From the IMG/VR virus record IMGVR_UViG_3300021964_000465, positions 1 to 25,545 of that record: 25,545 nucleotides of DNA, one strand, 5' to 3'. Below the pieces are notes generated by a model, which saw only the letters and a program-made list of their open reading frames with translations, ran no database searches and had not been told where the DNA came from. The translations under genes and the position numbers were made by a program. This document shows positions 8,610 to 10,592 of this stretch, piece after piece. The DNA is from a virus. Positions within the stretch are counted from its first letter, which is position 1. Each line of letters begins with the position of its first letter.

Positions 8610-8766
8610 TTTTTAATTTCCAGCGTTGATGAAAGCACTTGTCGTGCAATAACTTTCCGCCGCCATCTACAACATAATCATAGCCGTTTAGGTCTAGTTT
8701 GTTTTCACACCATACACAATTCGCCCATCGCGGTAGGATCGCGGCTTTAATCTTTTTTTTCGGCAT
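8596..8766 (-). CDS. Small putative zinc-binding protein
   Basis: This 56-residue protein is encoded between two better-supported minus-strand genes. It starts MPKKKIKAAILPRWANCVWC, giving a CVWC pair at 17-20, and has an HDKCFHQRW segment at 41-49, so one CxxC and one HxxC(x)H set could bind a single zinc ion. It overlaps the upstream 55-residue gene by 20 bases and the downstream gene by 14, as in a tight operon. It may be a small DNA-binding or regulatory protein. No family is recognised with confidence. Confidence 0.55.
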   Translation of the reverse strand: MPKKKIKAAILPRWANCVWCENKLDLNGYDYVVDGGGKLLHDKCFHQRWKLKNGKD

Positions 8767-8914
8767 CTTCTAGCGACCTTAATAGATGCATAGCCAGTTC
8801 ATGCTTTTCTTGGCGGCTAAAATCCACTTGGATCAGCTTTTCCCCGATAGCGACAACTAAGCCATCGCTATCGAGTGTCAATGCTATTTCTTCAAAATCA
8901 GAATGGAATTTCAT
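8747..8914 (-). CDS. Small hypothetical protein in the recombination operon
   Basis: This protein has 55 residues from the second of two adjacent ATGs (56 from the first, at 8917). It is acidic at the start (MKFHSDFEEIALTLDSDG), has a beta-like LVVAIGEKLIQVDF stretch and ends with a helix (RQEKHELAMHLLRSLEDAEK). Its ATG lies inside the coding end of the 79-residue gene, so translation is probably coupled. I recognise no domain. Confidence 0.5.
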   Translation of the reverse strand: MKFHSDFEEIALTLDSDGLVVAIGEKLIQVDFSRQEKHELAMHLLRSLEDAEKKD

Positions 8915-9137
8915 CATTTAATTTATTTACTGCTGGTTGAACTGTTGGCTGTTCTTCTTTTGGCTGAACAGATACGCTAAAATAATCGCCAGTTTTAGGG
9001 CTATTAGCATTCCAGATTGAAAGCCAATAATCCTTACCATCGACATTTAGATTGCCGCGAAAATCTGGTTGCGTATCTTTTTCTTTGCGATTGTTAAGAA
9101 ACGCCGCCCCGCGATTCGTATTATCATACTGTGACAT
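8898..9137 (-). CDS. Small SSB-like protein with DEIPF acidic tip (candidate)
   Basis: This is a 79-residue protein. The body (MSQYDNTNRGAAFLNNRKEK, then DFRGNLNVDGKDYWLSIWNA and a YFSVSVQP strand) belongs to a small conserved phage family of beta-rich proteins. The protein ends NKLNDEIPF, very like the D-D-D-I-P-F tip with which bacterial and phage SSB proteins recruit partners; a Pro/Gln/Glu linker (KEEQPTVQPAVNK) precedes it, as in SSBs. It lies directly after the ERF annealing protein gene (14-base overlap), the classic setting for a single-strand binding protein. No canonical SSB is present in the window. An SSB role is inferred, not proven; at 79 residues it is short for an OB fold. Confidence 0.6.
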   Translation of the reverse strand: MSQYDNTNRGAAFLNNRKEKDTQPDFRGNLNVDGKDYWLSIWNANSPKTGDYFSVSVQPKEEQPTVQPAVNKLNDEIPF

Positions 9138-9747
9138 TAGTTAATCCTTTCACTTTTTCTTTTTTCATTTTAAATAATTCAATTTGGTCGTCGGTTGGTT
9201 TGATGTTTTTGCTAGAAAATAGCCGTTTATAAACATCGTTTATTTCAGATTCAGTAGCACACGCAATCAACGCATCCGCTAATGTTTTATCAGTTACTTT
9301 TAGTGCGGGTGATGAGGTAGGGAGGGCAACCCCACCACCCGCTTTTTGCCTATCGCCGCTTGAAGGAGAGACAGCGCGACCAGCAAAACTTGTTGCAGAA
9401 TTAGCATCGTCGTCATCAGCATTTAGCCCGAACATGGTCATTAAACTTGCGCGGCGCAGATAAGTGACGCACGACATGAATGCTTGCGGTGTGTCTTTTT
9501 CAGGCTTTATTATTATGCGACTAGCAAATGATTCACCGCTTTCTAAATGCATTACATCAGTCACTAGCGCGTCATTATCAAAATACTGGTCAAATGTTAA
9601 ACCGTATTCATGGACGCCAGCCAGCGCGCTTAAAACGTCGCCTAGCGTGGTATATTCTGATCTAAACATCGGATTGCGCCCCGACTTTCCAACTGATGCT
9701 TCTGCGCGGAATTTGGATAAAGACCGCATTAAATTCACATTTCCCAT
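9124..9747 (-). CDS. erf: ERF-family single-strand annealing protein
   Basis: I start at the ATG at 9747 (207 residues), because a longer start at 9789 would overlap the exonuclease gene by 55 bases instead of 13. The pattern fits ERF: NPMFRSEYTTLGDVLSAL (25-42), HEYGL(T)FDQ, VMHLESGES, then CVTYLRRASLMTMFGLNADDD (93-113). ERF proteins anneal complementary single strands during phage recombination and genome circularisation. The C-terminal region has a low-complexity linker and a small helical domain (VTDKTLADALIACATESEIN). It pairs with the upstream exonuclease. Confidence 0.88.
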   Translation of the reverse strand: MGNVNLMRSLSKFRAEASVGKSGRNPMFRSEYTTLGDVLSALAGVHEYGLTFDQYFDNDALVTDVMHLESGESFASRIIIKPEKDTPQAFMSCVTYLRRASLMTMFGLNADDDDANSATSFAGRAVSPSSGDRQKAGGGVALPTSSPALKVTDKTLADALIACATESEINDVYKRLFSSKNIKPTDDQIELFKMKKEKVKGLTNVTV

Positions 9748-10592
9748 AGTTTTTTTGCTTTCTTTAAATATTCTGGTTGTAGTTTCCATTGATAATTATG
9801 TTGCCAATCTGGATCGGTGATAGATGCTAGGAATTTAACATCGCCAGATAAACAGACTAGATTCTGGCGTAATAAGGCGCGCTGACGCGCTTCATCGAGA
9901 TAATGCATCATCGCGTCATGTTTCAATTCATCGCAGTTGAAAGGCGTATATAGAACCGCATCATCGGATGATATGTAGCAGATAGATGGCGTGGTTTTCA
10001 GCGCGTGATAATATATGCTGGTCTGGATTAAATGGGCATGGTCTGGCTTTTTAGGCAAGGTAGCTTTTGCCCATCCCTGTTCGCCCGATTTTAGCACTTT
10101 AGTTTTCCGCGACGCTTTTGTTTTCATTTCGCAGAACATCGTATCGGGGACAACTAAATCGACATAGCCAATTACATCTATATGAATATCGGGAATGCGC
10201 GTTGATATCTTTTCTTCTGGCAGACCGCCAATAAAACCAGCTTCTGCTAATATTTGGACGCCGTTGTTTATAGCGTTGGGCAAATCATCTTTATATTTTG
10301 CCAGCGTTACATCATCAGGTTCTGGCACGTTCTGGAAAGCCAGATTAATCTGTTGCTGTTTAATTTCGTCAGCTATATCTGCGCCATTAGATATTATGTT
10401 TTGGATTCCAGTATGGGTTGCAGTTCCAAAATGGGCGTTATAACCAACTAGCAGATCTTGGCGTTCTTCACTGCTTAATAAACCATACTTAAATAGCCAA
10501 CTGCTAACTGTAGATGTTAGTCTGCTAGGGCTAATATAGGGCTGATTAAATCGTTTCCAAGCCGCTTCTATTTGTTCTATTGATAATTCCAT
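9735..10592 (-). CDS. RecB-like PD-(D/E)XK exonuclease
   Basis: This 285-residue protein is first in the minus-strand operon. It has GTATHTGIQ with His60, Asp145 in VIGYVDLVVPD, Glu155-Met-Lys157 in FCEMKTKA, and a QTSIY (190-194) QxxxY motif: the layout of RecB/Cas4/lambda-exonuclease-like nucleases. It probably resects DNA ends to give single strands for the ERF protein. A ribosome-binding AAGG lies six bases before the ATG on the minus strand. The N-terminal ~50 residues (YISPSRLTSTVSSWLFKYGL) are the usual entry helices of the PDDEXK_1 group. Confidence 0.88.
   Translation of the reverse strand: MELSIEQIEAAWKRFNQPYISPSRLTSTVSSWLFKYGLLSSEERQDLLVGYNAHFGTATHTGIQNIISNGADIADEIKQQQINLAFQNVPEPDDVTLAKYKDDLPNAINNGVQILAEAGFIGGLPEEKISTRIPDIHIDVIGYVDLVVPDTMFCEMKTKASRKTKVLKSGEQGWAKATLPKKPDHAHLIQTSIYYHALKTTPSICYISSDDAVLYTPFNCDELKHDAMMHYLDEARQRALLRQNLVCLSGDVKFLASITDPDWQHNYQWKLQPEYLKKAKKLWEM

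Follow-up and report, generated by a model that had tools for sequence, protein, structure and literature searches.

A 79-residue putative single-stranded DNA-binding protein encoded beside an ERF annealase in a viral contig

A viral contig of 25,545 nucleotides, the whole of which is called the window here, encodes a very small protein directly behind an ERF annealase, and the protein ends in a tip resembling the C-terminus of bacterial SSBs. Does this protein act as an SSB, or does it borrow only the tip of one? The initial annotation left both possibilities standing. Translation of the ORF (Table 1) gives MSQYDNTNRGAAFLNNRKEKDTQPDFRGNLNVDGKDYWLSIWNANSPKTGDYFSVSVQPKEEQPTVQPAVNKLNDEIPF, confirming the 79 residues and the NDEIPF ending that had been read from it. 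A good ribosome-binding site, AAAGGA, lies 8 nt upstream of the ATG, and the first 14 nt of the gene are shared with the end of ERF. Set against two close relatives, the SSB-like gene carries 13 synonymous and 4 nonsynonymous changes in one case and 16 and 7 in the other, corresponding to dN/dS values of ~0.06 and ~0.12; it is a real coding sequence under purifying selection. EIPF is invariant in this comparison, and the nonsynonymous changes all fall in residues 61–74 with the sole exception of F26Y, so that the core and the EIPF tip are conserved and the linker changes. The same residues make up the Pro/Gln/Glu linker described earlier ahead of the tip.

The surroundings within the window likewise agree with the initial annotation, which had placed ERF and exonuclease genes upstream and had seen no other SSB. 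The ERF assignment is firm (PF04404, E 9e-12; phrog_2324, E 4e-21), and the exonuclease is called from a single profile, phrog_1706 (E 4e-9). PF00436 and phrog_44 each gave 0 matches elsewhere in the 25.5 kb record, a viral contig that may be a fragment. At window positions 10592 and 10659 lies a divergent pair, from which the exonuclease–ERF–SSB operon runs leftward and a resolvase-like gene annotated Hjc/RusA runs rightward; promoter-like sites were no commoner than in shuffles.

Table 1. Coordinates of the features discussed; positions without a locus handle are those of the window.
Feature	Position	Strand	Basis or remark
SSB-like protein, 79 aa (phrog_7364/phrog_18154 family)	8898..9137	(-)	ORF translation, PHROG matches
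Core, residues 1–60	8958..9137	(-)	predicted strands 10–14, 26–32, 35–46, 50–59
Predicted disordered Pro/Gln/Glu-rich linker, residues 61–74	8916..8957	(-)	model and close-relative comparison
Acidic-hydrophobic SSB-Ct-like C-terminal tip, residues 75–79 (DEIPF)	8901..8915	(-)	conservation in relatives
56-aa ORF, same operon	8747..8917	(-)	overlaps 3′ end of SSB-like gene by 20 nt
ERF single-strand annealing protein	9124..9789	(-)	PF04404, phrog_2324/155; true start may be internal
Probable PD-(D/E)XK exonuclease	9735..10592	(-)	phrog_1706, weak
MKIG family members	L154:6172-6465, L165:3057-3347, L168:6181-6471, L220:6543-6989, L223:6462-6797		
Apparent two-core proteins	L083:5001-5516, L100:5026-5415, L101:7983-8372, L102, L103		DDDIPF/DEIPF-type tip
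Acidic-PF small ORFs	L195:1509-1745, L197:2775-3011, L200:2187-2423, L204:4608-4865, L187:4425-4670		

The protein had been described as belonging to a small phage family with no known role. This proved wrong, as two PHROG profiles that match residues 1–63, phrog_7364 (E 1.2e-13) and phrog_18154 (E 2.4e-13), carry the name ‘single strand DNA binding protein’, both are matched by all 32 of the 32 aligned family members, and many of the 131 phage records in GenBank that hold a relative carry an SSB annotation. By sequence, then, the window protein is a new member of an already named, putative SSB family. Profiles from Pfam, NCBIfam and PADLOC gave nothing above cut-off with the 79 residues, the bacterial SSB profile PF00436 included, and a sequence search of the PDB returned noise only (E 0.2). 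The database label may itself be an annotation transfer: the papers searched contained no biochemical study or ssDNA-binding assay of any family member, and in the ST32 paper the SSB is listed on the strength of its similarity to gp15 of phiEcoM-GJ1.

The initial annotation had proposed aligning the family to see whether its C-terminus is conserved, and the tip is indeed kept. An acidic-x-PF ending is present in 69 of 85 distinct relatives, and nearly all the others carry variants of it: three end in DDIP(x)W, nine in Phe, mostly behind acidic residues, and in four the D-x-(I/V)PF motif lies internally, with further residues behind it (the script scored two of these four as ‘other’). Variant tips include DDDIPAW, EDDIPW, DDLDDFF and DLNEDF. 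By comparison, about 1 in 1,209–1,247 non-family ORFs of the same viral loci has a related ending, once two missed family members are taken out. Members in chromosomes and proviruses, ranging from Gammaproteobacteria to Gracilibacteria, retain a tip of similar kind, and the linkers ahead of it, rich in Ala, Pro and Gln, vary freely from a few to ~50 residues; the family thus carries the linker and acidic-(I/L)PF tip of a bacterial SSB. From these sequences the acidic tip is real and selected, beyond what chance would give. The free carboxylate of the C-terminal Phe is commonly described as the feature that SSB partners recognise. In L065, L068, L090 and L096 residues continue beyond D-x-(I/V)PF (in L065 and L096 these are APEWR), so that the Phe carboxylate is not free and partner docking may differ. 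Separately, small proteins encoded upstream of ERF in other loci end in SDEVPF, DELPF or DKELPF and are possible SSB-Ct mimics; the one that was scanned had no PHROG or Pfam match.

We then considered the core, in which G10, N15, P24, G28, G34 and W42 are conserved. Two AlphaFold2 models, built from 32 and 59 sequences, agree on the same four strands (Table 1), with core pLDDT of ~85–92 and low confidence over residues 61–79; both are monomers from modest alignments, with pTM 0.53–0.57. The protein is therefore predicted to be a four-stranded beta meander with a disordered tail. Structure prediction had been suggested as a check for an OB fold, and the models did not bear it out: Foldseek searches of the PDB with the two models gave nothing significant (the best match had E 0.7), the matches listed included no OB-type SSB, and with only four strands we reject an OB fold on present evidence. 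PC4/Sub1 and Pur-alpha, ssDNA-binding proteins built on four-stranded sheets, appeared in Foldseek only at E 2–3, too weakly for us to claim a relationship. Structure matches in BFVD were family members, among them the SSB of Vibrio phage JSF9 and one entry named DUF736.

Several relatives, namely phiVC8, Rhodobacterales L100 and L101, and the Burkholderiales plasmids L102 and L103, appear to carry two cores before a single tip, which suggests that the cores work in pairs. The core is rearranged in two near-identical relatives from distant MAGs, L098 (Gracilibacteria) and L099 (Saprospiraceae), where the K..PDF loop is shifted to the 3–4 hairpin; these may reflect a phage common to both or misbinning of the contigs.

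Whether the family is placed in genomes as an SSB would be was addressed from its neighbours. The order exonuclease–ERF–SSB-like gene is common to the window, L139 and L140 (ERF 53–54% identical), and in L041, L048 and L075 ERF and a YqaJ-like exonuclease, recognised by eye, are followed by the SSB-like gene. Among 21 family records, ERF is present in 11, lying within ~1.5 kb of the gene in 10 of them, and other neighbours are Sak (2), a RecE/YqaJ-type or phrog_69 exonuclease (4) and DnaB (2). In records lacking ERF, the gene comes after Sak (L006, L038), a RecE/YqaJ-type exonuclease (L005, L065), a phrog_69 exonuclease (L064, L077) or a DnaB-like helicase (L007); in L016 a DnaB-like helicase adjoins it and ERF is more distant. 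Phages PMBT28, DMU1 and phiVC8 carry the gene near those for a PolA-family polymerase and a PurZ-like (adenylosuccinate-synthetase) protein or a helicase; PolA and PurZ-like genes together are the set found in 2-aminoadenine phages.

The view from ERF was obtained by gathering 80 viral loci with the ERF of L048, which itself adjoins a family member, as query, the SSB-like gene playing no other part in their choice. The slot beside ERF held the phrog_7364/18154 family in 44 loci, an OB-type SSB in 15, a third family (MKIG) in 13 and none in 8, counts that include close relatives and are not independent, and that we read as strong qualitative evidence rather than as a probability. No locus of the 80 held two SSB classes together, and in 5 of the 8 empty loci the contig runs out before the slot is reached. 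PF00436 was found in 5 of 50 contigs searched, all 5 without the family, and in 0 of 21 records chosen from the family itself. Phrog_44, which acts as the canonical SSB model in control genomes, matched 5 of 6 further OB-group proteins scanned, and L193 was put in that group by the iterated HMM alone; the OB-type SSB of L181 lies upstream on the opposite strand. Where phrog_44 matched family records (5 of 47), it was matching the family’s own linker and tip. Six loci that the iterated SSB HMM had labelled with both a canonical SSB and the family were rejected, the two labels falling on the same ORF through tail similarity. In the loci examined, therefore, the family takes the position of the SSB to the exclusion of any other. 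The MKIG family (MKIG..DVTKIDK..LDLTTFVD.., phrog_24909/36980) follows ERF and has DEDIPF-type tips, making it, from sequence, a candidate new SSB family.

Taken together, we think it quite probable (roughly 0.85) that the gene encodes a phage SSB made of an all-beta core, a disordered Pro/Gln linker and an SSB-Ct-like tip, and that it replaces an OB-type SSB in the recombination module. The core would coat ssDNA generated by the neighbouring exonuclease or present at replication forks and, if it oligomerises, would display the tip in several copies. Through the tip the protein would recruit ERF and/or the exonuclease encoded alongside as the likeliest partners, with host SSB-interacting proteins as possible further ones. 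Several points speak against this reading: with 60 residues the core is very small by SSB standards, it has almost no net charge (0 in the window protein, +1.5 on average in the family), the models show neither an OB fold nor a significant match to a solved structure, four relatives have residues beyond IPF/VPF, and the papers searched contained no ssDNA-binding assay of a member.

The small core and the lack of a recognised DNA-binding fold, together with the conserved tip, would suit a protein that does not coat DNA at all and whose tip competes for or diverts host SSB-interacting proteins such as RecO, ExoI and PriA, and related loci do encode other small non-SSB ORFs with acidic-PF ends, such as that of L195 (SDEVPF). 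We consider such a mimic improbable, because the family never accompanies a canonical SSB in the records tested but fills its slot, which favours a working SSB; moreover, the core is conserved at least as well as the tip, and in three phages PolA is adjacent, the position of a replication SSB. Of the two options in the initial annotation, the minimal SSB is thus well supported at the level of sequence, by the family name, the conserved tip, the position after annealase and exonuclease, the exchange with OB-type SSBs and the absence of another SSB, and the mimic is the less likely.

There is similarly a small chance that the protein is a recombination accessory, loading ERF or mediating its action by binding ERF or host SSB-coated ssDNA without being the main ssDNA coat. 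The translational overlap with ERF and the nearby exonuclease would fit such a role, but the family also occurs without ERF, beside Sak, exonucleases, DnaB or PolA, and it alternates with OB-type SSBs. A coincidental tip on an unrelated small phage protein, which a copied PHROG label of no experimental source that we found might have disguised, is highly improbable, as the tip is kept across 85 distinct relatives, the background being close to zero, and neither the linkage nor the slot exchange depends on that label.

The SSB reading gains a further dimension from DUF736 (PF05284), which is weakly matched by 15 of 32 family members (best E 0.0011); the window protein was not listed at E<=1, and the Pfam gathering score was not reached. 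A DUF736 HMM, for which genomes from the family of a Mesorhizobium were used, ranks 24 members of the SSB-like family above all 2,054 other ORFs, the reverse search agrees, and hhalign of the family against DUF736 gives a probability of 65% (P 8e-6). A relative on a Caballeronia plasmid carries the DUF736 annotation. The two share a K-rich loop, PD(F/Y), a strand ending in W and (Y/F)xS(V/L), and from these sequences the family core and DUF736 look distantly related by descent. DUF736 differs in being extended at the N-terminus and longer in its C-terminal portion, and the DUF736 proteins sampled, unlike the family, are without the acidic-PF tip. No DUF736 members were found in viral contigs. 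All Mesorhizobium ICEs and ICE-like plasmids surveyed carry DUF736 genes (PMC8627217). Because its core is distantly related to that of the SSB-like family, DUF736 may bind ssDNA in conjugative elements. A tentative extension, which we hold at less than even odds, is a superfamily of small non-OB ssDNA-binding proteins in which phages carry versions with an SSB-Ct tip and the tipless copies of conjugative elements handle transferred ssDNA; if true, DUF736 is a conjugation-linked ssDNA-binding protein.

For the window protein, the analysis sharpens a database label, pointing to what may be one of the smallest SSBs, with no recognisable OB fold. What makes it interesting is the connection to DUF736 and the exchange with OB-type SSBs: beside ERF, phages swap the family freely with canonical SSBs, and the results point to candidate functions both for DUF736 and for the MKIG family, unlabelled in the databases, that occupies the same slot. 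Two reports name phage SSBs as triggers of the bacterial defences AbpAB (PMC10732053) and Retron-Eco8 (PMC13158370), and a swap of SSB type could therefore alter recognition.

Among known systems, canonical bacterial SSBs (PF00436/phrog_44) share with the 79-residue protein the plan of core, disordered Pro/Gln linker and acidic-IPF tip as well as the genetic slot, but the protein has no PF00436 match, and its core of ~60 residues is predicted to be a four-strand meander, not an OB barrel. T7 gp2.5-type SSBs recall those relatives whose acidic-Phe ends lack IPF (DDLDDFF, DLNEDF), with no sequence relation detected. The SSB of HK620, the experimentally studied precedent that comes nearest, is also a small phage SSB that adjoins a single-strand annealing protein, and its last six residues, NDYPPF, are needed for Sak4 to bind coated ssDNA and for the stimulation of annealing and recombineering with Sak4 (PMC5928155); it is a DUF669 protein partnered with Sak4, whereas the window protein has no DUF669 match and its partner would be ERF. 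Closest are the phage SSBs of phrog_18154/7364, such as Vibrio phage phiVC8 p31, the Acinetobacter phage DMU1 ssDNA-binding protein and that of Salmonella phage PMBT28, which share the homologous core (residues 1–63) and a DDDIPF-type tip at 38–49% identity. These are longer, at 100–171 residues against 79, the phiVC8 protein having a second core copy that the window protein lacks, and they are encoded beside PolA/PurZ-like genes, whereas the window protein lies beside ERF.
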